From: a virus
Reading direction: 5' to 3' (one strand)
DNA: 52,686 nucleotides
IMG/VR virus record: IMGVR_UViG_3300030333_003828
Span: 1-52,686 of that record
Part shown: positions 15,402 to 42,100 of the stretch, piece by piece
How the letters are laid out: every line of letters starts with the position of its first letter
How positions within the stretch are numbered: the stretch's first letter is position 1
Translations under genes and position numbers: made by a program
The notes under the pieces: generated by a model
Told to the model about the DNA's origin: nothing
The model's input: the letters and a program-made list of their open reading frames with translations, nothing else
Databases searched by the model: none

Positions 15402-15665
15402 ATGGCAAACTCAACAAGTAGTAAAAAGATAATGTATAATGATAATGGTGCTTGGGAAGAAAAGATAACTGAAGCAAAGACGGTAGGCGAGCTTAAAGTT
15501 GAGCTAAATATTCCTGATAATACTATTATTCAAATTACATCAGGAGTTGGAGATGATGCAACTGATGTAGCTTTAAGTAATAATACTGATTTATTACCAG
15601 ATGGTGGGGATAATCCAATGTATGTTGCTTGGCAAACAAATAATAAGACAGGCGGTAAAAAGTAA
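15402..15665 (+). CDS. Ubiquitin-like modifier protein with processable Gly-Gly-Lys-Lys tail (87 aa)
   Basis: This is the predicted modifier of the conjugation module. I chose the ATG at 15402 because a strong AAGGAGGG lies nine bases before it; an upstream ATG at 15354 would add 16 residues across that ribosome site. After a flexible Ser/Thr/Lys N-terminus, residues 18-80 show the beta-grasp order: strand 'WEEKITEA', 'TVGELKVELNIPDNT' leading into a helix-strand segment, 'ATDVALSNNTDLLP', and the last strand 'PMYVAWQTNN'. The C-terminus is TGGKK (G84, G85). Two residues past the di-glycine imply maturation by a protease such as the neighbouring JAMM protein. It is flanked on both sides by structured RNAs. 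The fold is inferred by eye and by context. Confidence 0.68.
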   Translation: MANSTSSKKIMYNDNGAWEEKITEAKTVGELKVELNIPDNTIIQITSGVGDDATDVALSNNTDLLPDGGDNPMYVAWQTNNKTGGKK

Positions 15666-15675
15666 AGTAAAATAA

Positions 15676-15821
15676 TTTAATGGGGGCAATAACTGGTCCT
15701 CAGTACGGTGATAGACTTTGAAGTCTGGACTACGATACTGGAAAATAAGCCCTATGTGAAGACAGGTGGTCTACACCGTAGACAGCAACATAGGCAAAGG
15801 AATATGTGAGTCCCCATTAAA
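15676..15821 (+). ncRNA. Structured RNA unit D between the modifier and the 541-aa gene
   Basis: A perfect 10-bp closing helix joins TTTAATGGGG (15676-15685) to CCCCATTAAA (15812-15821). Inside are two arms. One has CAGTA/TACTG (15701-15705, 15736-15740) capped by AGACT-TTGA-AGTCT (15713-15726). The other has CCTATGT/ACATAGG (15751-15757, 15788-15794) capped by GTCTAC-ACC-GTAGAC (15769-15783). All pairs are Watson-Crick. It fills the whole gap and ends 5 bases before the AAAGGA ribosome site of the next gene. It matches no riboswitch, ribozyme or group I core that I know. Confidence 0.58.
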
Positions 15822-15839
15822 ATGTAAAGGAAAAATAAG

Positions 15840-17465
15840 ATGAATTTAGAACTCGACTTAAAAGTAAAAGAAAATCCTTATTTGCAGTTTAGTAAGCCAC
15901 CATTTGAGAATAATACTATATACAATATGTATGATTATGAAATTGATAGTATGAATAACTTTTCATTACAGTCTATAGAAGATTTATTAGAAGAAATAGA
16001 TTTCAATGAATTTGTTAAGTATACTACGATGAAAGAAGTTATTGAGTTTAACAGTCAATTAGAACATATCAAAGACCATTACTCTTCATATTTCAATGAT
16101 TATGAATTAGAAGTTACTAAGGCATATAATTGGAAGCGAGGACTGTATGACGCTTTAAAACATTGGTATACTTTAAATGCTGACTTTCATAAAAGAAATA
16201 GTGGCGTAAGTACTTTCTTTAGAAGAATAGAATATAATAAATGGTCTTATAACAGGTTTAAAGATGCATTTATTAAACTAGACCTTCAAAGAATAAAAGC
16301 TAAGAAGTCTGTTGGACAAGTAGTAGATAATTTAGAAGAATTAATTGAGCGAAATCAGGAACAAATCGTTAAGATTAATGAAGAAACTGAAAAAGCTAAT
16401 AACTTCTCTCCATTATATACTATTAGTAATCACATAAAATGCAGAAGAGTCAACAATGAATCAGATTATACTAGGATGAGGTTAGTTACAGTAGTTATTG
16501 CTAAAGCAAAAACAATGTCTGTAATTGATAATAACAATAATGTATTGTACAAACTCCCTGTTCCTAAGTCATATTTATATTTTGACAGACCCTTTTATAA
16601 GGCGTTGAATTATAACTATAGAAATAGGTCTGATATTAGAACTTTTGCATCTTCTCCAGGTGGAAAACATCCATACATACAAATATATGGTAGATATCCT
16701 TATTACCAGCGAGGTATTACATCAAGAAGGAATGAATCTAGATTGCATGATATGAGTACTGGTACATGGAGCACATTGTGTTTATCAAACTTTGCTGATG
16801 ATATTTTAAATGCATTAAATAAAAATGATTATTTATCATTTGTTCATTCAATATCATCATGGAATGGTATATACAATAAAGATTACACTACTCCATACAA
16901 TTCACCAATGACATCTTTTTATATTACAGGTATTCCTAATAATGATGATGCTGAAAGCATCAGAAGATTATCTGGCTTTAAAACAAGAGATTGTTTTATA
17001 GATAATTTAAAAAGAAGACAAATCGTAGAGTCTGATAATCATATAAGAGAAATATATAACACTCGTGTAGAATTAAATATGTTCTTATATGGTAATGATG
17101 TTGCTCAAGAATGTGATGCTAAAAAGTGTCCATTTAGAGAGAGTTGTACTGGATATAAATCATTAACAGAAATAGATGATGATTACTATTTTAGAATAGA
17201 ATCTTTAGTTGGAGCTATGGAAGAAAGTAATTTAGCTACAACTAATATAGAGTCAAGCTCACATATTACTAGATTAACTAGAGTATACTATGATACAGTA
17301 TCTACTTTAATGAGATGGGAGCATGATGTTGATGATTTAATAGTTCAATATCTAGAAAACATAGAATACTGGGGTAAACCTAAACCATTAACTGCAGAAG
17401 AAAGAGCTAATTTATGGATGGCGAGCAATTCTGAACATCCTAGCTCTCAACCTGCTAACCAATAA
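15840..17465 (+). CDS. 541-aa protein of the modifier operon, possible E2-like conjugating enzyme
   Basis: I assign this tentatively as the conjugating component. The first 190 residues are helical with a coiled coil ('NLEELIERNQEQIVKINEETEKA'). Residues about 200-340 include strands, then 'GKHPYIQIYGRYPYY' (H277-P278) and, 36 residues later, 'WSTLCLSNFADDILNAL' (C314). It then runs into 'YLSFVHSISSWNGIYN' and 'TTPYNSP'. This order recalls the HPN flap, the active-site cysteine and the following helices of E2 enzymes, with an insertion between flap and cysteine. A second cysteine cluster (C425, C430, C436 in 'CDAKKCPFRESC') may bind metal or an iron-sulfur cluster. The C-terminal 90 residues are helical and end in a flexible Ser/Pro tail. 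The operon supports the role; the sequence alone does not prove it. Confidence 0.45.
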   Translation: MNLELDLKVKENPYLQFSKPPFENNTIYNMYDYEIDSMNNFSLQSIEDLLEEIDFNEFVKYTTMKEVIEFNSQLEHIKDHYSSYFNDYELEVTKAYNWKRGLYDALKHWYTLNADFHKRNSGVSTFFRRIEYNKWSYNRFKDAFIKLDLQRIKAKKSVGQVVDNLEELIERNQEQIVKINEETEKANNFSPLYTISNHIKCRRVNNESDYTRMRLVTVVIAKAKTMSVIDNNNNVLYKLPVPKSYLYFDRPFYKALNYNYRNRSDIRTFASSPGGKHPYIQIYGRYPYYQRGITSRRNESRLHDMSTGTWSTLCLSNFADDILNALNKNDYLSFVHSISSWNGIYNKDYTTPYNSPMTSFYITGIPNNDDAESIRRLSGFKTRDCFIDNLKRRQIVESDNHIREIYNTRVELNMFLYGNDVAQECDAKKCPFRESCTGYKSLTEIDDDYYFRIESLVGAMEESNLATTNIESSSHITRLTRVYYDTVSTLMRWEHDVDDLIVQYLENIEYWGKPKPLTAEERANLWMASNSEHPSSQPANQ

Positions 17466-17474
17466 GGAGTAAAT

Positions 17475-18419
17475 ATGGAATTTATTATTAGTCAGAAAGC
17501 ATGGGATACCATGCAACAGTACGCTGGGATAGCTCATTCAAAAGATGGTAATGAGATATCTGGCATGTTAATAGTAAAGAAAGCAAAGCATCCAGTCACA
17601 AATGACGATGTATTTGAATTATGCGAACCTTCAATACTAAAACAAGAAAATACAGGTACTAGTACGGAATTAGATGCTGATGCTCTACGTAAATATTATA
17701 TAGAGACAGTAAAAAAGCATGGTTCTGATATTAGATATTGTTGGTGGCATTCACATCATACAATGGATGCGTTCTGGAGTACAACAGATGAAAAAGAAAT
17801 TAAAGCATGGAAGAATAAGTCATGGTCTTCTGCTTTAGTTATTAATTTAAGAGGCGAATACCTCTTAAGAATATCTGTTTGGAATCCAATTGAATCACAT
17901 GAAGATGTTCCATTAGAAATAATAAGAGATATTGCTGAGCCAAGCAAGAAAATGCTTAAAGAATATGAAGAATTATGCTCTAAGAAAACTTATGTATCTC
18001 CTGTTGTTACTAATGGATATGGACGTACTAGGAACTGGCAACAAAAAACTTTGTTTACTGCACAAGTCAATCCACTAGAAGATACAACAAAGCTTGAATG
18101 GAACGCATCTGATAGTCCAGAGATGTATTCTGAATTATTAGATGCTGTAGATTCAGAGCTGGAAAGATTGCATTCGTCTTTAATTAAGGGTGAAAAGAAG
18201 TTTAATGAATATAAAAATGAAGTAAAAGCTTTGAATGCACACTTAAAGAAAAGAAATGCTAAGTTTTCTATTAAATCCATAACAAAAAGTAAGATAGATG
18301 ATATTATGTTTAATGTATCAAGAGATTATATTCAATTTGATGATGCGCAGACAGAAGCATTATATGACCAAGTTGATGGATTAGTAAACTATGGAGGATA
18401 TAACTATGGCTGGCATTAA
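17475..18419 (+). CDS. JAMM/JAB-domain metalloprotease, deubiquitinase-like (314 aa)
   Basis: This zinc isopeptidase is likely to mature the modifier's tail and/or remove it from targets. The complete JAMM signature is present: catalytic E27 in 'EISGML', then H92-S-H94, seven residues, S102, two residues, D105 ('HSHHTMDAFWSTTD'). Both zinc histidines, the Asp and the Ser are intact, so it should be active. The JAB domain covers about residues 1-150. Residues 150-220 form a linker region and 220-270 a coiled coil ('LDAVDSELERLHSSLIKGEKKF'). The C-terminus is rich in Gly and Tyr ('VNYGGYNYGWH'). An AAGGAG ribosome site precedes the ATG, and the end overlaps the E1-like start by 14 bases, indicating coupled translation. 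Confidence 0.93.
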   Translation: MEFIISQKAWDTMQQYAGIAHSKDGNEISGMLIVKKAKHPVTNDDVFELCEPSILKQENTGTSTELDADALRKYYIETVKKHGSDIRYCWWHSHHTMDAFWSTTDEKEIKAWKNKSWSSALVINLRGEYLLRISVWNPIESHEDVPLEIIRDIAEPSKKMLKEYEELCSKKTYVSPVVTNGYGRTRNWQQKTLFTAQVNPLEDTTKLEWNASDSPEMYSELLDAVDSELERLHSSLIKGEKKFNEYKNEVKALNAHLKKRNAKFSIKSITKSKIDDIMFNVSRDYIQFDDAQTEALYDQVDGLVNYGGYNYGWH

Positions 18420-19077
18420 CATGCGTAGTGAAGGTTTAGTAAACAATCTTCATGAATATACATTTCATATCTTAGGTTGCGGAGCTATTGGTAGCTCTGC
18501 AGCCACTCAATTAGCAAGAGCTGGAGCAGAAAAGTTCTTGCTATATGATATGGATGACGTAGCAACAGAAAATATCGGAGTATCACAGTATTCTGGCGAA
18601 CATATAGATATGAAGAAAGTAGAAGCTCTTAATGAAATTCTACTTGGGATTAACTATAAGTGTAATATTATGATGTATCCAGAATATTATAATATGTTTC
18701 GATATCAAGACAATAATGATATTGTAATTCTAGGCTTTGATTCTATGAAATCTAGAAAAGAAGCTGTAGAAGATATATGCAGTAATAAGCGTACCAAACC
18801 TTATTTACTCATAGATGGCAGAATGGGTGGCGAACATTATCAGCAATACGTATTTACAAATGTAACACTAGCTAATTATCTTAAAACGTGGTATTCTGAT
18901 GAGGATGGCGACCCAGAGCCATGCAATGTCAAGGCAACAACATATTGTTCTAATATGGCAGGTTCTTTCATTGTAAATGCTATCAGGAAAATAGTGACTA
19001 AAAGTCCTTATGAAAAGGAATTGACATTTAATTTTCCTAGCATGACACTACAAAAAAATACTTGCTTACCAGTATGA
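18406..19077 (+). CDS. ThiF/E1-like adenylyltransferase (223 aa)
   Basis: This would activate the modifier's C-terminal glycine with ATP. I chose ATG 18406 because TGGAGGA lies seven bases upstream; 18391 would start before that site. The Rossmann glycines are at G24-C-G26-A-I-G29. 'LLYDMDDV' (D48, D50/51) binds ribose and Mg, and N56, Q61 and K70/K71 match the usual N..RQ..K series. However, the arginine of the NxxRQ motif is absent ('ENIGVSQY'). Cysteine candidates for thioester formation are C173 ('EPCNV') and C181. No CxxC zinc pairs are present. At 223 residues it is a minimal single-domain E1 of the ThiF/MoeB class, shorter than MoeB. It lies last in the module, directly after JAMM. Confidence 0.9.
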   Translation: MAGINMRSEGLVNNLHEYTFHILGCGAIGSSAATQLARAGAEKFLLYDMDDVATENIGVSQYSGEHIDMKKVEALNEILLGINYKCNIMMYPEYYNMFRYQDNNDIVILGFDSMKSRKEAVEDICSNKRTKPYLLIDGRMGGEHYQQYVFTNVTLANYLKTWYSDEDGDPEPCNVKATTYCSNMAGSFIVNAIRKIVTKSPYEKELTFNFPSMTLQKNTCLPV

Positions 19078-19151: not shown

Positions 19152-19826
19152 ATGAAACTAAAAAAAGAAAAGAGGAAAGCTGTGTCTATTAATCCTTCCA
19201 CTCTTTTACTATACGGAGCTCCAAAAGTAGGTAAAACTACTATGTTATCTCAGTTAGATGATTGTCTAATTATAGATACTGAGAAAGGTAGTCGTATGGT
19301 AGAAGGTTACATACAGGAAGTGAATAGTAGAGACGAGCTCATAGAAACTCTTATAGCAATAAAAGAAAGTAAAGATGTTAAGTATAAGTATATAGCTATA
19401 GACACTATAGATAAAGTAGCTGAATGGGCTGAAAGAAGAGTCTGTGAGGAAGAAGGTGTTAATTCTATAGCAGACTTAGCTTTTGGTAAAGGTTATGGAT
19501 TAGTAAGAGAAAAAGTAGCTAAAACTATATCTCACTTTAAAGAAGTAGCTGAACATCTTATCATTATTGGACATAGAAAAGTAGCTTATGCAGTTACAGA
19601 AGGCAATCCTATAGTTATACCAGAATCATTAGATTTAACTGGTAAACTAAAGAATGTTATCATGGCTGGATGTGATGCTATTGGTTATGTTTATCGTAAT
19701 GACAAAGAAGAGCTAATGGTATCATTTAAAGCAAATGATGCTATAGAGGCTGGTAGTAGATGTCCTCACTTAAAAGGTAAGGATGTTAAATTTCAATGGA
19801 ATAATATATATAAGGAGAAAAAGTAA
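19152..19826 (+). CDS. Sak4-type RecA-like recombination ATPase (224 aa)
   Basis: This is a P-loop ATPase of the AAA_24/Sak4 group, which promotes single-strand annealing together with a phage SSB. Walker A GAPKVGKTT is at residues 22-30, with 'CLIIDTEKGS' next and Walker B in 'YKYIAIDTIDK' (about residues 79-88). A RecA-type strand and sensor, 'LIIIGHRK', lies near residue 137. The length is usual for Sak4. The stop is followed directly by the ATG of the SSB-like gene, the standard pairing for this recombinase family, so the two probably act together in replication or repair. Confidence 0.88.
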   Translation: MKLKKEKRKAVSINPSTLLLYGAPKVGKTTMLSQLDDCLIIDTEKGSRMVEGYIQEVNSRDELIETLIAIKESKDVKYKYIAIDTIDKVAEWAERRVCEEEGVNSIADLAFGKGYGLVREKVAKTISHFKEVAEHLIIIGHRKVAYAVTEGNPIVIPESLDLTGKLKNVIMAGCDAIGYVYRNDKEELMVSFKANDAIEAGSRCPHLKGKDVKFQWNNIYKEKK

Positions 19827-20414
19827 ATGGCTATTTTTAGACCAGAAGAAAAGAAATCTTCAGGAAGTCCCTATTTGGGAGTTATTGAAGTAGGTATTAT
19901 TGGGTTTAGTAACAGAGCAAAAGAATTTGACTTTGCTGATATTTTTATAGAAGTTGAATTGTCTGTTAAAGGTAGTGAATATAGCAATAAAATGGCTATT
20001 CTGGGAAGTTTAGATAAAGATGCATCTGGCAATATTACAGGTGGGTCTGTCTTAAATAGAATGTATAAGTTATTTGATGCTATTGGTTGTAATGCAGGTT
20101 TAAATGTGCAGGGTGTATTTGAGGATGAGAATGGAAACACAATTGATGATATAGCTACATATTTAAACGAAAGATTCACGACTACAGGCGAACAATATTC
20201 AGCTTATTCATATAAGAAAAAGCCAAAGCCAGGTAAGAAGATATATACTGAGATTTATCCAAGGTTATATCCTAATACAGCAGAAGGTAAGGCTCAATGT
20301 CAGCAAGATACAGATTGGTTAAAGGGTAAAGGTGTTATTAAAGAAGCAGATGCGAGTGATATGCCTCAACAGAATGATACTCCTTTAGCAGCTAATGCAT
20401 TGAACAATCTGTGA
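19827..20414 (+). CDS. Single-stranded-DNA-binding-like protein (195 aa)
   Basis: This gene directly follows Sak4, and the pairing with a Sak4 ATPase is the main argument. The sequence is compatible with an OB fold: 'YLGVIEVGIIGFSNRAKEFDFADIFIEVEL' gives alternating strands, and a later beta segment ('YSAYSYKKKPKPGKKIYTEIYPRLYP') is followed by a disordered acidic-to-polar C-terminal tail (residues about 160-195). Unlike bacterial SSB it lacks the DDDIPF-type tip. It overlaps the primase-helicase start by 4 bases (ATGA-type). A single-strand-binding role is likely but not proven. Confidence 0.62.
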   Translation: MAIFRPEEKKSSGSPYLGVIEVGIIGFSNRAKEFDFADIFIEVELSVKGSEYSNKMAILGSLDKDASGNITGGSVLNRMYKLFDAIGCNAGLNVQGVFEDENGNTIDDIATYLNERFTTTGEQYSAYSYKKKPKPGKKIYTEIYPRLYPNTAEGKAQCQQDTDWLKGKGVIKEADASDMPQQNDTPLAANALNNL

Positions 20415-22180
20415 ACTACGTAGAGATAGCAGTGGGTTCCCCTAGGAGTAGGGGAACTCTGGTATTGAAGTCTGAACTTCACAAATATATACCACTTGAT
20501 GGTACGGCATTGTATCGTTCTGTTTATCTCTATGATAAGGATGCGAAAGAATACGCAGACTCAAAAGGTACTTTAAAAGGCTACCAGGGAGAACGAGGTA
20601 TTGACAATGTTTTAATTGATATAGACAGAAAAGATAATTCTGACGACTATACACTAGCTAAATTAAGAGAAACTCTTAATCATCTAGATATACTTGAAGT
20701 GCTTGACGAGAGCATTCAATGTTATTTTAGTGGCACAGGATATCATATCGTTATATCAAATAAAGTATTTAATTTTGTTCCTTCTGGTAGTTTACCTTAT
20801 CAAGTAAAAAGAACAATGTCGTCATTGTTCAATAATATTGATACAAGTATCTATATGAGAAGTGGAATATATAGAGTTGCACATACTAAGAATCAAAAAA
20901 CAGGACTCTATAAAATTCCAATAACATTGCGAGAATCAAAATCCTTATCATCAAAAGAAATACATAAATTAGCTACTGAACCCAGATTTGAATATCCATA
21001 TGAATTATTAGATGGAGATGGGGAGTTAGAAACAGCTGTTTGCACAGAAACGCCCAAAGTTGCCGAATTTACAAAGATTTCCGAGCCAACCAAGGTAGTA
21101 CCCTGTGTACAAACAATGTTGCGAAATGGCCCCATAGAGGGCTCTAGACACAATACTGCCCTTAGAATCATTAGTCACTTTAAAAGACATGGGATTCCAA
21201 GTGAGTATGCAAAAGTAGCTTTATTACATTGGAATAACAATACATTAAACGAGCAAAAAATGATTGAAAAAGTAGAATCCGTATACAATGGAAACTATAA
21301 TTACGGATGTCAAGATGTGCTTATGAAGAAGTATTGTCAGACAAAATGTAATTTCTTTAAAAACAAGGATTATCACATACATGTTAAAGATGCAGATGAA
21401 CTACAAAAAGAGTTTCAGGAAAGAATAGAAACTAATTTTGTAGGCAGAGCAATCCCATTGACAGAAATGTTTGGGTTAACAAACTATGATACTCAGATAT
21501 ATCCAGGAGAGTTAGTAACTATATTTGGGCCCACAGGCTCAAATAAGACTACTTTAGCTCAAAACTTAGCACTAGGAGTTGATTTTAAAAATGACAGAAT
21601 CAACAAGAAGTGGCAACTACCAACGCTGTTCCTATCTTTAGAGTTATCTGCCTGGTATATGCATAGAAGACATTTGCAAATCGTCTCTGGTTTATCCAAA
21701 GATGAAGTAAATGATAATTATAAAGAAATTTATAATGATTATGCAGACCAATTAAGGCATTTACAGATACAAACAGTTTCTCCAACTTTATCTTCTATAC
21801 AAAATAAGATAAAAGAATTAAATCCAGCTGTTGTTATAGTGGATTACATAGATTTAGTAGAGACACCTCAGAATATTAGAGGAGAATACGAACAAATAAA
21901 GTTTGTCTCTCATAGCTTATCTAGTTTAGCTGTAAATCTTGATGTAATAATAATTCAAATATCTCAAGTTAGTAGAGAGTATAGTAGAAATGAAGTACTT
22001 GATTTATATGCAGGTAAAGGCTCAGGAGCCATAGAAAATGCGTCACGTAAAGTGATTGGATTAAATGGACAAGCAAATAGTGACATAAAGCATATACATA
22101 TGTATAAAAATACAGATGGAGAATTATTCGATACAAAGGTTGAATGGCGAGAAAGCTTTAGATTAAGGAGAGTCGAATGA
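20411..22180 (+). CDS. Fused AEP-type primase and DnaB-like replicative helicase (589 aa)
   Basis: This would prime and unwind phage DNA. The N-terminal domain has archaeo-eukaryotic primase signatures: the metal pair D70/D72 in 'NVLIDIDRKD' and 'SGTGYHI' (S107, H112). A helical linker with three spaced cysteines follows ('CQDVLMKKYCQTKCNFF', about residues 298-315). The C-terminal RecA-type helicase has a Walker A GPTGSNKTT (373-381) in which the usual Gly before Lys is Asn378, Walker B 'VVIVDYIDLVE', and 'VIIIQISQVSRE' as motif H3. With no DNA polymerase in the genome, host polymerase must extend from it. It overlaps neighbours by 4 bases on both sides. Confidence 0.87.
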   Translation: MNYVEIAVGSPRSRGTLVLKSELHKYIPLDGTALYRSVYLYDKDAKEYADSKGTLKGYQGERGIDNVLIDIDRKDNSDDYTLAKLRETLNHLDILEVLDESIQCYFSGTGYHIVISNKVFNFVPSGSLPYQVKRTMSSLFNNIDTSIYMRSGIYRVAHTKNQKTGLYKIPITLRESKSLSSKEIHKLATEPRFEYPYELLDGDGELETAVCTETPKVAEFTKISEPTKVVPCVQTMLRNGPIEGSRHNTALRIISHFKRHGIPSEYAKVALLHWNNNTLNEQKMIEKVESVYNGNYNYGCQDVLMKKYCQTKCNFFKNKDYHIHVKDADELQKEFQERIETNFVGRAIPLTEMFGLTNYDTQIYPGELVTIFGPTGSNKTTLAQNLALGVDFKNDRINKKWQLPTLFLSLELSAWYMHRRHLQIVSGLSKDEVNDNYKEIYNDYADQLRHLQIQTVSPTLSSIQNKIKELNPAVVIVDYIDLVETPQNIRGEYEQIKFVSHSLSSLAVNLDVIIIQISQVSREYSRNEVLDLYAGKGSGAIENASRKVIGLNGQANSDIKHIHMYKNTDGELFDTKVEWRESFRLRRVE

Positions 22181-25881: not shown

Positions 25882-26117
25882 AATATTATTTTATTCTTTT
25901 GGTAACATTTCATAGTATAGAAGAAATATATACTTGCAATAATCCAAATACCTTAGGAAATGAAAATATACATATGCTTTGTAATTGGAATGATGATGAT
26001 TTTATACAATACCCCGACGGGGAAAGACTCTTAAGACCGAAAAGAAAAAAAGATAACTTTATTAAAGCTTATTATAGGAAAAAGTATTGGATTAATAAAA
26101 TGAAGTACCAGGAGTAG
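25878..26117 (+). CDS. Last early gene, small protein of unknown function (79 aa)
   Basis: I chose the ATG at 25878, which overlaps the previous stop as ATGA; a GTG at 25857 would add seven residues. The N-terminus 'MKYYFILLVTFHSIEEIYTC' is hydrophobic and could be a membrane or export segment. The rest is polar and ends in a basic tail. Its last 26 bases overlap the end of the convergent 2861-aa gene on the other strand. Confidence 0.5.
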   Translation: MKYYFILLVTFHSIEEIYTCNNPNTLGNENIHMLCNWNDDDFIQYPDGERLLRPKRKKDNFIKAYYRKKYWINKMKYQE

Positions 26118-29100
26118 GAGCTGTATATCCCTCTTCCTTCCTTTTCTCTCTATCCTTTTTAGCCTTACTTAAACCAATCATTGGTAATCCAGTCCATTTA
26201 TCTATTACAGATAAAGGATTATCAATAAGGTTATTTTTAGAACCAAAATCTCTCGCTATCCTTCCAAATGGAAACATTGTATATATATAATAGTCAGATA
26301 CTCTTGACCAATCATCTTCTAGCATAGCTCTCATGGAAGCCATAGGCATTCTAGCGATAGGAGGTGTTATCATTTGCAATGGAGCTACAGCTGTAGGCCA
26401 TTGACCAAAGAAAGCTCTATTTCTTTCTTTTTCATCTCCAAATACCCAATCAGCTGTATCCTGGAACCAGTTCCAAGGAGCTGGCATTGCTGTTTCAAAT
26501 AAAGAATAAGCAAAAGCATTACCAAGAGAGAATACAAATAAGTCCATTTGCATCATTCTTGCAGCTCTTTCAGCTTCAGCTCCTCTAAATCCATACATTC
26601 TAGCTTGTCTTAATGCTTCTTTCCTAAATCTAACTGCATTCCATCCCCATAATTGAAATCTAGTCATAACTTTACCAAGAGCTGTTCTTGCAAACATTGG
26701 TCTATATGGAGCAGAATATAAAAACTGAGTTGCTGCTACACCTTTTTTTGCTAATTTAATTAAAATTGGATGGTCAAAGTCTTTAATAGCACCACCAAAT
26801 TTTCTATACCAATGTAAATAATGAGCCATAAAAGCATCTCTTCTCAAGGCTCTTTCAGGGACAGACATAAACTTAGCTGCAAATTCCATTACAGGTTTAG
26901 TAATTTCACTCTTTTTAGCCATATCAATGACAGACTTTTCACTAAGTTCAGGGTCAGCCCTTAACTTTCTAGCAACACCTTCAATAAATTCTTTATTTTT
27001 AGATGATTGATACTCACGCATCAATCCATATTCTTCCATCATTTGCTCTGGGAAAACACCGTGTTTTACAGCCATATTATCCCTACCCTGCTTAGTAGCA
27101 AATTCAGGGTTAATACTCTCCATATACTTGTTATTTCGGGCAGAACGCCATGTTTCAAAGCCAACAGACTGGATAGTATGCATAGTACCACCAAATATAT
27201 TAGCTACCATAGACTTTGGATGGGCCAATAGTGATGCTAACTCAAATTTAGCTTCAAGATTGCTCCAGTTCCTCATGTCTTCAGCAGTGAAACCTCTTAA
27301 TTCCTTTGGTAAGTCTTTATTTAAAACACCAATAGTTTCAGCAATCTTATTAACTCTGTCTCTAACTCTATTATCTGCCCACCAACCGTATGGAGTTGCT
27401 CTCATTTTCATTTTAGGGTCATTTAATATATGCTCAGGAACTATATCAGGATTCCCAATTGCACCTTGAACATATAATTTCATAAAAGTAGTCCAAGCTT
27501 CTTGCTGTTCTTTGGGAACTTTTCTTTTGTACATAGATTCACCAAATTTATCAATAGCATCTCTACTAAATACTTGAGCCATCTGCCTATAATATGAGTT
27601 AATAATAGATTTAGCATAAGCCATAGGCACTTGTCTATCTAGTGAATATCCTGGGATATGAGCTTCCCTTGACATAGTAGAGCCAGGCTTAGTGATATTA
27701 TTTATCCACCGTATTTTAGCTTCATTTTGCTCCTTTTTAGAGCCAATTTTAGCTTGAACCTCATCTAACCCTTTCCATCCTTCAATATCTTGAAAATTCC
27801 AATCTCCAGTAAGAGCATGATGTCTATATACTATCTTTTTAAGAACATCATTAGTTTCTTTTTCAGATAATTCAGAAGTTCTTAAATTTTTAGCATATTC
27901 TTTTAGACCTTTAAGTGCACTGCCTTTGTCAAAATGCATATGCATCCAATAATTCTCAAAAGGAATCCTACCAGTAGCAGAAGAAGGAGAGTTGTAAAGC
28001 AATTCCAATTCTTCTTGAGTTAAATCTTTATTTTTTCTGCCCATTTCAATCATCATAGAGCGAACAATTTTATTCATCCCATCAACACCAAATTTAGTTG
28101 GTATTGCATCTCCATGAGCAAAAGCTCTTTTCATATCATTAGAAAACTTTTCAATATCTATAATAGGATTTTGCTGCTTTTTATCGTAATAACCTGTTTT
28201 AAATTTCTTTGACAAGGGATGGTTAGGCTGTGTATTAATTAACATATAACCACTATTCTTTTTGCCGCTTGTAAAACCAGGAATACCCTCTATAATAGAT
28301 GTAGGAATAACAGCTACTTGTTCTTTTTTACCATCTATAGTCACTGTTTTAGTCATAGTCTGACCTCGAGCATCAAGTACAACATCACCACTTATATAAT
28401 CTTTAAACATTCTTTCAAAAAATTTAGTATAAGTATCATTAATTCGGTCAATTAATTGTTCTCCAGTAATTCTTTCTCTAACAGGTTGCCCTTCTTTTTC
28501 CACTGTAATATTATATATTTTATTTTTTAAACTTTTTTCATAATCATAAGCTTTAATAATATTATTGTATAAGTCTTTATAATGTTTGACTTCTGCAAAT
28601 TTCTTATTATTATCTTTAGATTTGTCAGACATTATCCTAGAAACTTCTCCAAGTTGTCTTTTTGCGACAGCAATTTCGTGCAGTCCTTTAGAATCTGAAA
28701 TTGTATCTAAAAATATTAAATCCTTTGCAAGTCTATGAACTTCTTCATCACCTTTACCAATAGCCGCATCATTAGTTAAAGACACTCCACTTTTAATCTT
28801 ATCCATGTACTGAGTTGGTGTAATAATTCTACCCATTTTGTTAATACCATCAGCAGTTAAAAACATTCCCTGTTCTTGCATTAAGACTATTTCATCCTTC
28901 ATTAATTCACGATTAATAGTCTCAGGAAACTGCATGTAATGTCTTTCTGATAATTTAGTAAATTCTCCTTTAGACAGACGTTGCCATAATGTCCCTCTCT
29001 TTACGTCATCTAGCCAATTTTTCAAAGCAAACCAATCTGCTTTATTTAGTATATTAATATCTTTACGCAATAGACTACGAACAATGCCACCAAATTCTTG

Positions 29101-32100
29101 CAATACTTTTTTGTTTTCTGTCTTTAAATGAGTTAATATATCATTAATATAACCCTTAGTCTCAGGGTCTAACTCTACTTTTTTAAACTCTTTTACACCT
29201 TCCCAGCCAGTACTTGTAGTGAATATACCTTCTACTTTTTCATTACCTTTCTCTGGGAATCCTTTTTCTATATTTTCTTGTTTCTGTGGTTCTTCAGTAA
29301 TTAATTTACCTTCTTTACGTATTTGCTCTGGAGCCCTCTGTTGAGATGTTTCGCTATAAATATTGAGCATTTCACCTAAAAATGCACTTCTAGACTCCTT
29401 AGGTATAGCAGCACTACCATAACCCAATCTTGAAGAATCTGTTCTAGCTGTTTCTTTGTATAAATCTTCTAATTCTTTCTGTTCTTTATCTGTAAGTTTT
29501 GTTTTTGCTTTTAATTGCTCTAGTCTCTTTAAGTTACCCCTATTTAAAGAGCCTAGCATTAAAGTATCAAATAATTGTTGTTCTAAGGCAGACTTGCCTC
29601 GCTTCCATTTTCTAATAGCGTTATCAATTTGAGCTTGGTCAGCATATTGAGTACCTTCAGTTTTCATCATCTTACGAATAAAAGATTTTTTAAATCGCTC
29701 TACATTAGTTGGGTCTGACTCATTCTTAGCATCTCTCATTAAGTAACTATTAATTTTTAAAGCTTGAACTTCAAAGTTTGTATCTCTAATGATTTTATTT
29801 ATAGCTGCATCAGATAGCTCGGGGTTAGCTTCTTTCATAGCATCAATAATACGAGAAACTCTAGTAACTGTTACAAGATTTTCAATATCTTTCATTACAA
29901 AGTCACCAGCCATTTCTTTTACTTGATTTAATGCTTCAATTCTGTCTTCTATTCGACTGTAATCTTTTTTCTTATCCCATTTAGTTCTTTTCCCACGCAT
30001 AGCACCACGAGTTTTTTCATATTCCATTGGAGTACCTTTAATAATATCATTAAAGATAGCTTCATTTTGTACAGCTCTATCAAATCCAGCAGGGCTTAAC
30101 AAGTCATGCTGGATTGATTTTAGTATATATTTCCCTGTAATAACTCTAAAAGTACTTCTTTGTAATGCCTGTTTAAGATAATCATACTTACCAATAGCTA
30201 AATCATATTGGTCAAATAACTCTTTAAAACGACCTTCAAATTGATTTGTTTTAGAATTATATCGTAAATCTACCTTTCTTAAAGCATTATCAGAATAATC
30301 TAATCCATGTAGCATTTTAGATATTTTAGGAGTAATAGTATTCAGCTGTTCGTCAGGCATTTCTGCCAATTCTTTAGTTAATTTTCTTCTTTCTTCCATA
30401 GACCATTGTCTGTCTTTGGTATAATCCTTACCATAAAAAGCAGAGTTAGCATCAGTTAAAGATTTAATAATACCATTATTCCTGATATAAGTCATTAGTC
30501 GCCCTGTTGGCACTCTCTTAGATGTTTCAATGTTAAAATGAGCATTAACTAGAGCTCGATACCAAAATTGATATCCTTTCATACCAGCATAATCCATTGG
30601 GTCAGAAGATAATCCAATCATTGCTCGAGAAAGTTTTCTAATGTAATCTTTTTGCTTAGCATTTGTCTTGGGCGTTATAGTAATGTCTATAGTATTACCA
30701 TATTTATCTTCTACAGAATATGTATCGCCACCTGTTTTAATCATCATATTGTAAGCAGCAGACAGTAAATTCTTTTGAGTAACAGCAGTACCTAATAAGC
30801 CTCTACCACCGACAGCAGCTTCTGACATCTGCATTCGTACATTAGGAGCATAAACAGCTTCTGGACTATCAATTAAATTCTTCTCTGCTGAAGAATATTT
30901 AGTAGTAAGTAAATCTATAGCCCATTGTGGTTTATTGCCCACTACCTTCCCTTGAGCATCATAATATTCTTCTTTATTGGCCTTAAACATATCCTTCCAT
31001 GACTTTTTAAAACCACCTTTTCCACCCATATAAAAATAGGCAGAATCTCCATCAAGGTCAGCACCGCCTAAAGCTTCCATCGCTCTAGAATGCATAAGTA
31101 TTCCATGTCCTTCTCTACCTGTAAACCCAGAGAACCTTAAAACCTGAGTACCAGATATAGAGTCCATAGGCACTCTCATTACGGCAGACCGAAATGTTTC
31201 TTCTAATTCTTCCTTTACTTCTTTGTTAGGCCTAGTAGAATTTTCGTTCTTTTCATACATCTCCCATAAATCACGTAACTTTTTACGACCAAAAGATTCT
31301 GTCTCTATAAACATATCTTCATAAGCTTTATCTAAAAAGAATAACTCATCATTTTTATCTAGCTCTTTTAATCTTTTATTTACCTTATCTAAGTCTTGCT
31401 TTAATCCTTCATCATAAGGTCTCATTCTTGCAGCACCAGAATTGACTATTTTAGGTTTTGTAGCTTGATTTAAAATATAACTAGACAATACTTTCTGTCT
31501 AAAAGAATTGATAAAGGGGTGAACATATATACCAGCTTCATTTTCTGGCTTATTCTTAGAAATAGCATCAGCTCTTGCGTCAGATATCATTCTATCAGCT
31601 AATGAATTATATTCTTCTAGCTCTTTATTTTGTGATTCATACTGCTTATCAGTTATATCTCCATTCTGATAATCCTCTTCTAAAGACCTTTTTTTATTTT
31701 TTAACATTTCCTGATAGGCTTTATTGATAAATAATTGATTGCCTGATTTATTAAGTGCAGATAGAATTTTAGATAAACCTATACTATTAAAATCTAAAGC
31801 ATCTAACTCTTTAATTAATTCCTTATTTGATGCTGTAGGAAGTTTTTCTAAATACTTTTCAAGTGCTTCATTTCCTTCTTTTGTACCTCTAAATCTTGGT
31901 TCAATGACAGAATCAAAAATATCTTCAACAACTTTTTGCATTCCAGTTCCATCTTTTAATTTAGGACTAAATGCTAAAGCTTCAACGAGGTTGGTAAGTA
32001 TTTGCTTTTTAATAGTCTGAGGCTTAATCATATCTGCCCCTTGCTTTACGCCATAGCTAAATCTAATATGCTCGGGATTTAATTCATATTCAGTGTAAAA

Positions 32101-34677
32101 TTCTCTAGTTCCTTTTTGCTTAACCCCAGATTCATACATATATATATGATGTCCATCAGCTCTCATTTGAGCACTTTGTGCTTTGCCTGCTGGGTGAAAC
32201 ATAAATTTACCTAATAATGCACCATGTTGATTGTGAGGAGATATAATAAATGATTTATTTTGTGTGATACCAGCAAATGTACCAGCATCTAAATTCATAC
32301 TCTCTAGAACATCATCTCTTACTATAAACGCACCATCTGTATCTTGAGGCATCTCAGAGCTTTTCATTTGTTTAGATATTTCTTTTTTAAACTGAGGGTC
32401 TTTTAATATCTGATATATAAAATTACCATCTTTTGATAAGTCATTTATCTTATTTTGATAAAATTCCTTTTCTCCTGGATATGAATCTGTCATCCATACT
32501 TGACTTCTTTTATTCCATGCAACAGCATTATTAATAAAATCTTTAGATAAAAGTTTTCTTACATTGGCAGGACTATAATCTAATCCATTAAGGGACAGAT
32601 TCCATAGTATATTAGACTTAAAAGCTCTATTAAAGTAATCTTTATCTATTCCTTTGAATTTGTTATTAAAATCTAATCTCAATTTATCTATTGTAGCTCT
32701 ATTCAGTCCTAATGTGAGTTCAGACATACTACGTCTGTCTGTTTCAGGGTGAAACTTAGTAAATACAGCATCATCTTTAGCTCCTTTACCTCCAAAATAA
32801 TAAAAATTTTCACCTTTCATAATTTTCATTACATTAGTCAGAGTTTGTCTATAATCTGCTTCTCCCCCAAATTCATTCTTATAAAATGGTTCTTTTCTTA
32901 CTTGACTTAAGTTTAACGCTCTATTATTACCATTCTTATCTTTAATTATTATTTCATCTAATATAGCAGTAGCACGCTCTCTATTCCCAGTAAGACCATA
33001 CAATACATCATCTATAATCTTATATGGTTCAAATCTTAACTTCTTATCACCTGCTAAATTTGAAGGATTATCTTTCCCAATAAACTTTAATCCAGTTCCA
33101 TCTTGATTAATTGTTATTATTTTAACAGGCTGGTCTTGATTTCTTCTAGAAACCCATTGCCTTGCATTTAATTGTAAATTTGATTCGTCTTTAGGATTAA
33201 TAGTAAAGTTATATTCATCCTTTAGCATTTTCTTTAAATCTTTTACAAAAGCTTCGGATTCATTCTGAGCGATTCCAGTCTCTTTTGTTAAAGTATTTTT
33301 AAGAAGGCCACCAATTATTTCTGACAATTCTTTAGTCTTAGAAACTAGCTCTGTTTCACTCGTAATATCTTTAAATATATCTAAACCTTCATTGAGGTTT
33401 CTTTTATTACGTATATGGTTTTTAATTATATTTAACGATTGACCTCCAAGCCTAGCTTGCTCTCCAGATACAGTATCAATCTCTAAATCACTTGTATTTA
33501 ATTCATTTAATTCTTCAAGCTCTTTAATGTCTAATTCTCGAAGCTTTTCAATAGACTTAGTGATTCTTTGACCTTCAGGAGATTCTGGCTTAATACCCAT
33601 TGCTTCTAAGTCCACACCACCCTTTAATGCAAACTCTAGTATAGCAGCTTCATTTTGAGCTCTAACACCCAATTCTTTATTGAACATTTCTTTTACTACT
33701 GTTTTTACTTCGGGAGGTAGTTTTTCATATTTGGGATGCATAGATGGGTCATAAAATCTTTCTAAAGCTTCATTCCCATCTTTTTTCATATCTTTATTAA
33801 ATTCTTCTCTGAATTTACCAGCTTTAGCAATAGTCCATGGCTTTTCCTGTCCTCCAAACCATGCACCCATAACATATTCATATACTTGCTCAGGAGTAGT
33901 CGCTCCTCTCATAGTAGCAGGCAGACCCATAAATAAAGAACCTGCAAGGCTTCTAGCTACTTTAGTTCCAGCTTCACTTCCTGTATTGATAAAGTTACCT
34001 ATACCTCTAAATACTGCACCAGCCTGTGCTCCACCAATAAAAGCAGACATCATTTCATCTATTCCACCTTGCCATGCAGAAACAGCAGATGCTGCTCCTA
34101 GATGAAAAGCACCTTCAGCAATATGTCTAGCTTGATTACCTAGCAAGAAATTTGTAGCCGTTTGAGTAGCCCCGAACTTACCTTTCTGACCCTTATCTAA
34201 GAAAGGACGTATATTCTTTTTCGCAAAATCAGTAGCTTTTTTAGCTGCAAACATAGGAACAGATTTATCATTAAGTTTTCGAGCCATTTGAGCAGCAGCA
34301 AGAAGTGAATTGGTTTGTGCACTAGCTCCAGCTAAACCAACTTTAGCCGCAGCTTTTCCAGCAGCTCCTAATGGAGCTCCAATAATACCAGGAGCAAATC
34401 CTGCTAAATGCCCTAAATTCCTAAATATAGCCTCATATTCATTGTCAGGGGTATCTCCTACATGAAGCGTGGTAAAACCTTCTATAAAACCAGCTCCTAG
34501 GTCGGTTAAAGCGTCAGATAAACTAAAGTCTCCCGCATAAAAGGGGATGTTGTGATATTCAGCATGTTGCTGTAAGGATTGTTTAAATGATTCGGGATAC
34601 GCTTTTGGATTCTTTTTGTAAGAATCTATTACTGTTCTTAGAGTATCAGCATCCCATTTTGGTTGGAATTCAGCCAT
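26092..34677 (-). CDS. Giant virion protein (2861 aa) with RNA-polymerase-like DLDGD motif
   Basis: This is the last gene of the late block, following three internal-virion-type genes, where podoviruses place DNA-ejection proteins. Residues 1207-1211 are DLDGD within 'EALGGADLDGDSAYFYMGG', preceded by 'RVPMDSISGTQVLRFSGFTG'. Two-barrel RNA polymerases, including crAss-like phage virion polymerases and the phage YonO group, carry the metal-binding DxDGD in such a setting. Possible first-barrel lysines are K832 ('HPAGKAQS') and K878 ('SYGVKQGAD'). The N-terminal 230 residues have hydrophobic Gly/Ala helices, and the C-terminal 300 residues have a membrane-active-looking segment ('FLYSAPYRPMFARTALGKV', about residue 2640). 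I infer a virion RNA polymerase fused to ejection domains. No other RNA polymerase is encoded. Confidence 0.72.
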   Translation of the reverse strand: MAEFQPKWDADTLRTVIDSYKKNPKAYPESFKQSLQQHAEYHNIPFYAGDFSLSDALTDLGAGFIEGFTTLHVGDTPDNEYEAIFRNLGHLAGFAPGIIGAPLGAAGKAAAKVGLAGASAQTNSLLAAAQMARKLNDKSVPMFAAKKATDFAKKNIRPFLDKGQKGKFGATQTATNFLLGNQARHIAEGAFHLGAASAVSAWQGGIDEMMSAFIGGAQAGAVFRGIGNFINTGSEAGTKVARSLAGSLFMGLPATMRGATTPEQVYEYVMGAWFGGQEKPWTIAKAGKFREEFNKDMKKDGNEALERFYDPSMHPKYEKLPPEVKTVVKEMFNKELGVRAQNEAAILEFALKGGVDLEAMGIKPESPEGQRITKSIEKLRELDIKELEELNELNTSDLEIDTVSGEQARLGGQSLNIIKNHIRNKRNLNEGLDIFKDITSETELVSKTKELSEIIGGLLKNTLTKETGIAQNESEAFVKDLKKMLKDEYNFTINPKDESNLQLNARQWVSRRNQDQPVKIITINQDGTGLKFIGKDNPSNLAGDKKLRFEPYKIIDDVLYGLTGNRERATAILDEIIIKDKNGNNRALNLSQVRKEPFYKNEFGGEADYRQTLTNVMKIMKGENFYYFGGKGAKDDAVFTKFHPETDRRSMSELTLGLNRATIDKLRLDFNNKFKGIDKDYFNRAFKSNILWNLSLNGLDYSPANVRKLLSKDFINNAVAWNKRSQVWMTDSYPGEKEFYQNKINDLSKDGNFIYQILKDPQFKKEISKQMKSSEMPQDTDGAFIVRDDVLESMNLDAGTFAGITQNKSFIISPHNQHGALLGKFMFHPAGKAQSAQMRADGHHIYMYESGVKQKGTREFYTEYELNPEHIRFSYGVKQGADMIKPQTIKKQILTNLVEALAFSPKLKDGTGMQKVVEDIFDSVIEPRFRGTKEGNEALEKYLEKLPTASNKELIKELDALDFNSIGLSKILSALNKSGNQLFINKAYQEMLKNKKRSLEEDYQNGDITDKQYESQNKELEEYNSLADRMISDARADAISKNKPENEAGIYVHPFINSFRQKVLSSYILNQATKPKIVNSGAARMRPYDEGLKQDLDKVNKRLKELDKNDELFFLDKAYEDMFIETESFGRKKLRDLWEMYEKNENSTRPNKEVKEELEETFRSAVMRVPMDSISGTQVLRFSGFTGREGHGILMHSRAMEALGGADLDGDSAYFYMGGKGGFKKSWKDMFKANKEEYYDAQGKVVGNKPQWAIDLLTTKYSSAEKNLIDSPEAVYAPNVRMQMSEAAVGGRGLLGTAVTQKNLLSAAYNMMIKTGGDTYSVEDKYGNTIDITITPKTNAKQKDYIRKLSRAMIGLSSDPMDYAGMKGYQFWYRALVNAHFNIETSKRVPTGRLMTYIRNNGIIKSLTDANSAFYGKDYTKDRQWSMEERRKLTKELAEMPDEQLNTITPKISKMLHGLDYSDNALRKVDLRYNSKTNQFEGRFKELFDQYDLAIGKYDYLKQALQRSTFRVITGKYILKSIQHDLLSPAGFDRAVQNEAIFNDIIKGTPMEYEKTRGAMRGKRTKWDKKKDYSRIEDRIEALNQVKEMAGDFVMKDIENLVTVTRVSRIIDAMKEANPELSDAAINKIIRDTNFEVQALKINSYLMRDAKNESDPTNVERFKKSFIRKMMKTEGTQYADQAQIDNAIRKWKRGKSALEQQLFDTLMLGSLNRGNLKRLEQLKAKTKLTDKEQKELEDLYKETARTDSSRLGYGSAAIPKESRSAFLGEMLNIYSETSQQRAPEQIRKEGKLITEEPQKQENIEKGFPEKGNEKVEGIFTTSTGWEGVKEFKKVELDPETKGYINDILTHLKTENKKVLQEFGGIVRSLLRKDINILNKADWFALKNWLDDVKRGTLWQRLSKGEFTKLSERHYMQFPETINRELMKDEIVLMQEQGMFLTADGINKMGRIITPTQYMDKIKSGVSLTNDAAIGKGDEEVHRLAKDLIFLDTISDSKGLHEIAVAKRQLGEVSRIMSDKSKDNNKKFAEVKHYKDLYNNIIKAYDYEKSLKNKIYNITVEKEGQPVRERITGEQLIDRINDTYTKFFERMFKDYISGDVVLDARGQTMTKTVTIDGKKEQVAVIPTSIIEGIPGFTSGKKNSGYMLINTQPNHPLSKKFKTGYYDKKQQNPIIDIEKFSNDMKRAFAHGDAIPTKFGVDGMNKIVRSMMIEMGRKNKDLTQEELELLYNSPSSATGRIPFENYWMHMHFDKGSALKGLKEYAKNLRTSELSEKETNDVLKKIVYRHHALTGDWNFQDIEGWKGLDEVQAKIGSKKEQNEAKIRWINNITKPGSTMSREAHIPGYSLDRQVPMAYAKSIINSYYRQMAQVFSRDAIDKFGESMYKRKVPKEQQEAWTTFMKLYVQGAIGNPDIVPEHILNDPKMKMRATPYGWWADNRVRDRVNKIAETIGVLNKDLPKELRGFTAEDMRNWSNLEAKFELASLLAHPKSMVANIFGGTMHTIQSVGFETWRSARNNKYMESINPEFATKQGRDNMAVKHGVFPEQMMEEYGLMREYQSSKNKEFIEGVARKLRADPELSEKSVIDMAKKSEITKPVMEFAAKFMSVPERALRRDAFMAHYLHWYRKFGGAIKDFDHPILIKLAKKGVAATQFLYSAPYRPMFARTALGKVMTRFQLWGWNAVRFRKEALRQARMYGFRGAEAERAARMMQMDLFVFSLGNAFAYSLFETAMPAPWNWFQDTADWVFGDEKERNRAFFGQWPTAVAPLQMITPPIARMPMASMRAMLEDDWSRVSDYYIYTMFPFGRIARDFGSKNNLIDNPLSVIDKWTGLPMIGLSKAKKDREKRKEEGYTAPTPGTSFY

Positions 34678-39198: not shown

Positions 39199-42100
39199 TA
39201 TTTGGGACTTTTATCTTTATACGTAACCCCTATTGAGTCTACATGTCCTTGCTGATTAAATAGCCTTATACTAAGTTTTCTGCCTTTTGTCCCACCAGCA
39301 AACTTGAATTTGGGAGAAACTACATATACAGAACTTCCTTGTGAGTGACTAGCTTTAGTGGTATTCATTTGAGCTCTTTTTACAGTAATAATAGTATGAT
39401 TAGTATCATTTTGTTCACCACTTACATACTCTAAACCAGTAACTAACATTATTTCATCATCTATTTTAATCAAATGACCTTTTCTAATAAAAGTTTGAAG
39501 CGTAGCTGAATTTCCAACAAAAGCAGTGACGCCCTCATTAGGTCTTTTTAAATTAATATTCAATTTAACTTTGATTTGTGTCGCTTCTGACAATACTGAT
39601 GTAGTTGTTATAGTATCACCTAAATCACTAATAGCATAAAACTTATTGTATACAGTTAAACTTATTGGTTTATCATCAACATATGCTTGGATAGAATTAA
39701 GTAAATTCGAATAAGCATTAAATTCATTAACATCCTTAAGATTATAATTATAGACAGATGGTGTTCCCGTAAAGGATAATGTCTTAAACACCTTATCTTG
39801 AGAAGAAGTTCCAATAATAATATCTTTACTTATCCATTCCCATGTCTCTCTGTTATATCCACTATATTGCTTAGTAATAGATGAAGTATAATCATATAAA
39901 TAACTGCCATCACTCACTAACAATTTAGACTCTTTTGATGGAGCTGCTGATTGTATGTGAGGAGCTTTCCATAAATCCCAACGCTTATGCTTTAAACTAT
40001 AAGCATATACTCTGCCTTGCGTTGACTCATCTGACAAACTAATAATAAATGCTTGTTTTTTACCTAGATAATGAATTGAAGGTCTTTTCCTTGAGTTAAT
40101 CGTTTCCTCTAATAACTCTTTAAATCCTTGTTGTAATCTAATATTTCCTTGAGTGCTTTCTTCTGTTGACTCTTGATGCTTTGATTTATTGTCAGATGCA
40201 TATAGTATTGGGTCACCAATAGGTCTAGGCATATTACCATCATGGAGATATATATTATTTTTATCAAAAAAGCATAATCCAAATTCAGTCTTAACAAAAC
40301 AATCTTTATTTAGTATGCTGACACCCTCAAATTCATCTTCAATTACCATTGTATGTGGATTTATTTTATATAGACTATTAAATCCCCATGCATACAATCT
40401 AGAGTTAAAACTTGCTAATGCAATTGGTTCTTCTGGCATAATCAAATAATCTTCTGCCCAATTAAATGCAAAATAGTTAAAAGGTTGAGACCTAAATATA
40501 TAATTTCTAACATCACCTAAATCTCTATTCCAAGCTTTAGCAACATACATATATCCTTGATGCACCTCACCAATACCATAGTTTAATGTAGTATTTGGCA
40601 ATGATTGAGGTAGTCCTGTAGTTGCTTCATATGTACCCATAGTATTATTGTAATCATATAAATCATATTTAAATGAGCCTGTACTACTATCCCACCACCA
40701 ACCTTTATTACTGAAATCAATCTGACCTAATAAATAGTAATCATCTATCTCCCTTCCATCTTTTCTCCTGTATACAGAGAGAGCTGTTACTCTTTTGTTG
40801 AAACCTTCAGCTACTTCAGGTTGTATACTAATATTTAACTTAATATATTCATACGGGTCAGCCCCATCAGCAACTGTAATTTCTTTTGGTATTGGCTCTC
40901 CAATATGCAATGGGGATTCGTACTGACCATCATATACCAAAGCAAATTTATAATAATAAGTACCATCATCAAATGGCCCTGTATCTACTTGATTCCCTAA
41001 AGAAAATTCTATAAATGCTTTTGTTCGTGATATAATAGTTGAATCTGAAGATGAAGTAATAATAGCTCCGCTATCAGTTGAATTATCGAAGGCACCTCCA
41101 TTTTCAAATCCATATTTGACAGAGCCACTACCTGCATCTGAATATACATCAGTAGAATAATAATTATCTTCATACCCCCAAAACTCATAAGCCCCATCAA
41201 TACTTCTAGTGTGTATATAAAAATCTAAAAGCAATCCATTTTGCTCCACTTGAGAAGTATTCATAAATTGAGGAGTCAGTCTATCATTAGGCATAACACT
41301 AACATTAGCATCGTGAGCAGTAACTGGTAAGAATTGTAATGCTGATGCTCTTAATCCAAGCGTTTGATTAGCATAAAAATCATTATTATCAAATAATTCA
41401 TAGTCAGATACGGTACTTGTTATTATAAATGATTCTAAAGCATGGGTATTAGTAGAAATCCTAGAATACAATGTATTAGCAACTCCATTTATATCAGTCT
41501 CAGCCATACTTCCTGGTAATCCTATATCATAAATTGGCATTAATGCTCTATGCCTAGGAGTTGCACCATCTGCAAAATTTTGCTCTATCTCTGTGTAGCT
41601 ACCATCATTAGCATTATATTGAGGACCAGCAATATTTGTAACAAATTTGTGATTAATGGTATCAAAATTATTTGATACAATTAACAATCCACCCTTGTAT
41701 GTATATGCTGAAGAAGGACTATCAGGCAATGCCTCTCTAAAGGTTACTCCGCACATGTATGCAGAAGTAAAATCATTTTCAACTCCATCAACTCCAGGGC
41801 ATCCTAATGTACTTCTCAATATAAAAGGAGCTGAATTATTTATTCTAACTATCTCATAATTACCATCATAAATATTAATTTTATGAAAAGTACAAACAGA
41901 ATCTGCTCTTCCTGAATTAACTTCTTCACGAGCAACTACAGACTCTAGAGCATGACTACTGCCAGCCAATCTCTTAGCTGGACCAAACCTTCCATTTTTC
42001 ATTGGTGCATGCTCTTCAGGCTTATAAGGGGTTGTCTCAACAGGGTTAAAGCCCGACACAGTATTCATACTATTATCCATTATAGAAGTAATAGAAAAAT

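Follow-up and report, generated by a model that had tools for sequence, protein, structure and literature searches.

Four consecutive genes of a marine-type tailed phage, IMG/VR record IMGVR_UViG_3300030333_003828, probably constitute a phage-encoded, self-contained system of ubiquitin-like (Ubl) protein conjugation, comprised of a modifier, an E2-like protein of 541 aa, a JAMM protease and an E1-like activating enzyme. The whole record of 52,686 nucleotides (52.7 kb) was analysed and is referred to as the window. Reversible Ubl conjugation during early infection is the most likely function of the cassette. The four genes are real, their order and context are constant, and the C-terminus of the modifier and the catalytic residues are conserved; from these we infer the reactions of the cassette, the identity of its E2 and its targets. 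The original prediction of such a module is supported more strongly than the sequence of the window alone had allowed. The features are the following.

15402..15665, +, ubiquitin-like modifier, 87-aa precursor ending NNKTGG-KK (ORF, homologues, ThiS in relatives, AF2 model)
15651..15656, +, Gly84-Gly85, where the mature modifier is predicted to end and to be conjugated (the same in all 55 aligned modifiers)
15657-15662, +, Lys-Lys tail following Gly84-Gly85, predicted to be removed
15840..17465, +, probable E2-like conjugating protein, 541 aa (66-row alignment, AF2 model)
16668..16676, +, HPY motif, residues 277-279, putative counterpart of the E2 HPN (66-row alignment)
16779..16781, +, Cys314 in [VLI]-C-[LF]-[DGS], the predicted catalytic residue of the probable E2 (66 of 66 rows)
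16992-16994, +, C385, upstream of the Cys cluster (49 of 66 rows)
17115..17147, +, Cys cluster C425/C430/C436, possible zinc site (52, 65 and 56 of 66 rows, respectively)
17475..18419, +, JAMM/MPN+ metalloprotease, 314 aa, predicted to act in Ubl processing and deconjugation (Prok-JAB, profile, motif)
17553..17555, +, JAMM catalytic Glu27 (invariant in the family alignment)
17748..17789, +, JAMM metal-site motif H92-S-H94-x7-S102-x2-D105 (invariant in the family alignment)
18391..19077, +, E1-like activating enzyme, ThiF/UBA5-like (Pfam ThiF, PDB profile)
18922..18924, +, Cys178 (numbered from 18391), predicted E1 thioester cysteine in an EPC motif (conservation)
19152..22180, +, replication/recombination block, context outside the cassette (PHROG)
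19152-19826, +, Sak4-like ATPase (PHROG Sak4, 3.8e-33)
19827-20414, +, unassigned gene between the Sak4-like ATPase and the helicase/primase
20411-22180, +, DnaB-like helicase/primase (PHROG DnaB, 2.7e-31)

A constant four-gene set at the head of replication genes

The record is assigned to a tailed phage because it encodes a terminase large subunit, a portal, a major head protein and an endolysin; its terminase is less than 30% identical to the closest annotated phage records among the matches listed. Two giant late genes (26092-34677 and 39198-46838 (-)), coding for 2861 and 2546 aa, have no Pfam match. Downstream of the cassette lie the Sak4-like ATPase, the DnaB-like helicase/primase and, listed after the latter, a gene for an HNH nuclease.

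An initial scan of IMG/VR with the E1 yielded 34 loci, and broader scans using profiles of the E1 and of JAMM gave at least 458 and at least 315 matching stretches, respectively, of which the best 80 of each were retained; with duplicates removed, the pooled scans give at least 107 distinct IMG/VR loci. The order Ubl–541-aa protein–JAMM–E1 is constant across them, and the cassette is not a product of chance, since the set was found again, its order unchanged, in at least 107 distinct loci. The predicted run of four consecutive genes is thereby confirmed, all four ORFs lying on the plus strand. A replicative helicase is encoded within 7 kb past the E1 in all 56 loci having enough downstream sequence, and Sak4 lies downstream of the E1 in 38 of these. 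The original prediction had suggested tagging of host or virion proteins, or the countering or imitation of a host system; because the cassette always heads replication genes, an early, replication-stage role is suggested instead.

Among the nearer relatives, identity amounts to 75-81% for the E1, about 48% for JAMM and about 33% for the 541-aa protein, and the supposed E2 is therefore the fastest-changing member; its gene (15840-17465) diverges much faster than the adjoining E1, as if facing varying substrates or hosts. All four genes are under purifying selection, with dN/dS below 1 in close pairs (E1, 0.01-0.18; JAMM, 0.14-0.26; Ubl, 0.09-0.18; 541-aa protein, 0.13-0.57).

Among genome (MAG) contigs, a recognisable cassette occurs in one only (L157), the four other matches being partial ThiF, and a scan of IMG/VR found no relatives of its E1. 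No close plasmid relatives of the cassette were found. When 50,697 annotated phage records were searched by tblastn, the modifier, the 541-aa protein and JAMM gave no match and the E1 alone reached crAss-like and Flavobacterium phages. In the freely accessible literature, subscription papers lying outside the search, no account was found of a phage that encodes a Ubl-E1-E2-JAMM set.

The four proteins and their predicted active sites

The modifier, the ATG of which (15402) is preceded by the Shine-Dalgarno-like AGGAGG, terminates in a motif typical of its family. K[TVK]GG stands at or near the C-terminus in 70 of 70 distinct modifiers, and although the search itself demanded KxGG, such a gene is encoded at the same place in 69 of the 69 loci with sufficient upstream sequence; the 15 loci that have an E2-like gene without a modifier all end no more than 436 bases before the E2-like gene starts. 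Of the 5,030 ORFs in the cassette loci that code for 50-130 aa, 81 have KxGG no more than 18 aa from the C-terminus, and most of these are the modifiers themselves. Lys82, Gly84 and Gly85 are invariant in the 55 aligned modifiers. Thirty-eight of the distinct modifiers stop exactly at Gly-Gly, 30 bear tails of 1-18 aa and two continue into a further domain. The latter (L021:2614-3297 and L025:2210-2875) carry about 118 aa past KTGG, weakly DUF7303-like (E=0.009, below the cut-off), and resemble ubiquitin-fusion precursors. Searched alone against Pfam, NCBIfam, PADLOC and PHROGs, the modifier of the window has no match, and it is not among the seven of 55 relatives that match Pfam ThiS (best 8e-5). 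Its AF2 model (pLDDT 70) presents the elements b-b-a-b-b-b, the order of a beta-grasp, and the best Foldseek matches are nearly all ubiquitin-like folds, at E>0.03 and none at E<=0.001. The call of a modifier, originally made from its C-terminal residues and its neighbours, is strengthened by the 70 homologues, the ThiS matches and the beta-grasp order of the model.

The JAMM protein, which has a C-terminal extension, matches Pfam Prok-JAB at E=6e-4, below Pfam's own cut-off. Its metal site is complete (E27, H92, H94, S102 and D105), HxHx7Sx2D is present in 103 of 103 distinct ORFs of the family, and the best solved match to the family profile is an archaeal Rpn11-like protein (6fjv; 2.8e-6), all of which bears out the protease assignment. 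In addition to its predicted trimming of precursors, the enzyme probably also deconjugates, since its metal site is retained without exception although more than half of the modifiers already end at Gly-Gly.

The identification of the fourth protein as an E1-like enzyme likewise holds, with Pfam ThiF matching at E=4.4e-20 (72.3 bits against a cut-off of 28.1) and GxGxxG[SA] occurring in 102 of 102 E1 ORFs. The E1 profile finds UBA5 as its best match in the PDB (6.7e-18), then MccB (4e-15), ThiF (5e-13) and MoeB (1e-11), with PaaA also among the matches. The EPC motif is present in 98 of 102 marine E1 ORFs, and its Cys178 is invariant in the E1s of marine, crAss-like and Flavobacterium phages; the columns kept into the latter two groups include Arg12, the GxGxxG loop, Asp53, Asp55, Asn61, Lys76, Asp117 and Cys178. 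In UBA5, Cys250 sits in the crossover loop (PMC12355090), and Cys178, read by eye and not from a scored alignment, appears to resemble it in position. The overlap of 14 bases with JAMM that had been described holds if the E1 starts at ATG 18406; from ATG 18391 the overlap is 29 bases. The start at 18406 appears more likely, and many relatives begin at or near its site.

The 541-aa protein is a probable E2, judged by its HPY...Cys motif and its context. Cys314 is the sole invariant column among 66 aligned relatives, and the HPY motif lies upstream of it (His in 47 of 66, otherwise Phe or Tyr; Pro in 63; Tyr or Phe in all 66), the pattern HPY...C being present in 91 of 91 distinct ORFs of the family. 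This resembles HPN...G-x-[IV]-C-L-[DS], the pattern of E2 enzymes, with [HF]-P-[YF]-[IL] followed by Cys and the Asn replaced by Tyr or Phe. The protein bears an extra N-terminal helical region and a C-terminal Cys-rich region, in which C425, C430 and C436, together with C385 upstream, would form a possible zinc site. The AF2 model (mean pLDDT 81) runs from a long helix (165-189) through a strand meander (193-251) and the HPY loop to Cys314 and a pair of helices, an element order compatible with an E2 core.

Pfam searches with the 66 E2-like sequences matched no E2 family, a PDB sequence search with the family retrieved no E2, HHalign against yeast UBC4/UBC9 gave E=0.02 over 19 columns only, and Foldseek of the model against the PDB found no significant fold match. 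The E2 call is kept at probable because no E2 fold was confirmed by Pfam, HHalign or Foldseek-PDB; the "possible E2-like segment" first proposed is supported by the invariant cysteine behind HPY (66 of 66) and by the setting. Foldseek against viral models recovered relatives at 1e-18 and, at 1.9e-4, a protein of 420 aa, equal in length to the Flavobacterium phage Fpv2 gene in the same cassette slot. Among the checks put forward with the original prediction, structural comparison gave the 87-aa protein a beta-grasp element order with fold matches below significance and left the 541-aa protein with no significant PDB fold, and HMM searches returned ThiF, a Prok-JAB match below its cut-off and ThiS in modifier relatives, with no match for either the modifier of the window or the 541-aa protein in Pfam, NCBIfam, PADLOC or PHROGs.

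Proposed mechanism and competing explanations

Sets with comparable parts are known from cellular organisms. BilABCD, an ISG15-like anti-phage system of bacteria, likewise has its Ubl, E2, JAB/JAMM and E1 as separate components, four in all, and its gene order, which we take to be Ubl-E2-JAMM-E1, is that of the phage cassette. The phage genes reside among replication genes whereas BilABCD occupies a bacterial defence island, and they encode a single-domain Ubl and an E2-like protein of about 540 aa that matches no described E2 family. No Bil, CBASS or Bub model in NCBIfam or PADLOC fits the cassette proteins above its cut-off, the PADLOC matches being to the E1 part only. UBA5, the best solved match of the phage E1 profile, belongs to the eukaryotic UFM1 pathway; both are minimal E1s, and the Cys of the phage enzyme, like that of UBA5, would lie in the crossover loop. 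UFM1 and UFC1 bind a C-terminal extension of UBA5, UFM1 ends in Val-Gly, and the UFM1 proteases are cysteine proteases, unlike the JAMM enzyme of the phage. The E1-E2 of 6A-MBL/CBASS type II differs in that the phage E1 is a separate gene, which scores 36.8 bits with NF058523 against a cut-off of 320.

Bacterial Ubl-E1-E2-JAB sets have been described (PMC1779556), as have Bub and Bil (PMC13373217). Bub operons similarly hold Ubl, E1, E2 and protease parts, and the phage E1 profile matches BubCD (9ea4/9ea5) at 1e-8, as it does many E1s; Bub proteins, however, include fusions (BubCD) and CapK/CapW/CapH regulators (PMC13373217), and neither such fusions nor regulator genes were recognised at the phage cassette. 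The class 6d/PRTRC plasmid cassette of Iyer 2006 also brings together Ub-like, JAB, E1-like and E2-like genes (PMC1779556), but its E2-like protein has no upstream His, which most phage 541-aa relatives keep, and the phage proteins score far below the PRTRC models (PRTRC_ThiF, 24.1 bits against 144.75; PRTRC_A, 12.8 against 101.8). A phage-encoded Ub-like domain with a JAB is known from the lambdoid tail cassette (TAPI Ubl and TAPK JAB/NlpC; PMC1779556), although there it belongs to virion tail assembly and has no E1 or E2, whereas the genes described here are early and include an E1 and an E2-like protein. The E1/E2/RING/Rpn11-like operon of the archaeal C. subterraneum (PMC5654768), the source of 6fjv, has a canonical E2 and a RING E3, neither of which is recognised in the phage. 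By analogy, the phage cassette most likely works like Bil and Bub, with no Bil or Bub model above its cut-off.

The proposed pathway would begin, for modifiers made with a tail, with JAMM cutting the precursor back to Gly-Gly. A homodimer of the E1 would adenylate this end with ATP and then hold the modifier as a thioester on Cys178, from which it would be handed to Cys314 of the 541-aa protein. The latter would link the modifier to lysines of target proteins, its Cys-rich C-terminal region perhaps selecting the substrate, and JAMM would undo the linkage. No E3 was identified for the cassette. Since the genes would be expressed together with those for replication, the targets are proposed to be phage replication and recombination proteins or host proteins of that stage. 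Tagging of replication-stage proteins is tentatively favoured over a purely anti-defence use.

Sulfur transfer offers an unlikely alternative, in which a ThiS/MoaD/CysO-like modifier would be converted by the E1 to a thiocarboxylate and JAMM would free the product, in the manner of CysO/Mec+ or QbsE-type systems, the 541-aa protein being a sulfurtransferase or cofactor enzyme. ThiS-ThiF-JAMM sets do occur in sulfur metabolism (PMC1779556) and some modifiers match ThiS, but the genes profiled around the cassette included no recognisable rhodanese, cysteine synthase, PAPS reductase or thiouridylase, two modifiers carry a fused further domain, and the 541-aa family has its HPY...C motif with an invariant Cys. 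The E1 also scores with NCBIfam ThiF (4e-21) but misses every ThiF equivalog cut-off (75.5 against 159 bits for NF006395; 25.9 against 376 for TIGR02355), and it is closest to UBA5, with an invariant crossover-type Cys. Activation without conjugation, whereby the E1 would adenylate the modifier for MccB- or PaaA-like chemistry or for modification of the modifier only, is very improbable: the constant partners of the E1 are a JAMM protease and a predicted beta-grasp protein, and UBA5 outscores the MccB and PaaA matches from which the idea draws its support.

A cassette acting mainly as a decoy or antagonist of host Ubl immunity (Bil or type II CBASS), in which JAMM would remove host tags from phage proteins, would accord with the gene order shared with BilABCD as we take it to be, and bacteria do turn Ubl conjugation on phages (PMC10097602; PMC13373217). 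This too is rather unlikely, as a pure antagonist would need JAMM alone, yet the phages retain all four genes and every catalytic residue, and the Bil, CBASS and Bub models stay below their cut-offs. A JAMM-only antagonist is rejected on the ground that none of the four active sites has been lost.

Relatives in crAss-like and Flavobacterium phages

Related cassettes in crAss-like phages and in the Flavobacterium phage Fpv2 are comprised of a Ubl-like protein, an HSH...C-x-G protein, a JAMM protein and ThiF, and all four parts are present in 43 of 47 crAss-like loci, where the cassette lies between the genes for primase and uracil-DNA glycosylase. Their Ubl-like domain ends K-x-SG or KSGG and is followed by a C-terminal extension. 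Residues conserved in the crAss-like proteins include E47, H109, H111, S119 and D122 of JAMM, as well as the E2-like and E1 cysteines. The marine and crAss-like JAMM families are homologous (HHalign 98%, E=2.6e-13), the modifiers match by profile at E=9e-4, and the E2-like proteins align by profile at the Cys motif only, with no significant HHalign match; sequence comparison thus points to a common origin clearly for the E1 and JAMM and weakly for the modifier. About 42 of the 47 crAss-like loci have an extra conserved gene right after the E1 (for example, L036:6666-7310 and L038:6051-6854), absent from the marine cassette. In GenBank, the E1 genes of crAss-like and Fpv phages carry the name thiamine biosynthesis protein ThiF, a label that probably misleads.

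It is possible, if somewhat short of probable, that a whole Ubl conjugation and deconjugation system belongs to the early, replication-linked genes of large groups of tailed phages, both marine phages and crAss-like gut phages, with a new class of E2-like protein, that reversible tagging of replication or host proteins runs the infection, and that phages are perhaps a reservoir of cellular Ubl cassettes. Bacterial Ubl conjugation is now known mainly as an anti-phage weapon, and bacterial viruses would, if this is true, use protein tagging in their own life cycle, a complete set having been kept in more than 100 marine loci and also by crAss-like gut phages whose hosts can be cultured. The record of ubiquitin-system origins would then gain a divergent E2-like family and a minimal UBA5-like E1. 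The cultured Bacteroides phages PhiCrAssBcn make the cassette directly testable by proteomics.

In two unrelated phages the JAMM gene is broken at the HxH motif: on the MAG contig (L157:3979-5584) by an ORF that is possibly a homing endonuclease, and in Fpv2 (L037:3668-5960) by a reverse-strand ORF. The interruptions are probable introns or inteins; Rfam gave no match on the interrupted genes. Gaps or odd ends beside the same catalytic motifs are seen in the crAss-like loci L165, L177 and L184 (JAMM), L186 (E2-like) and L170 (Ubl), suggesting further insertions at conserved sites.
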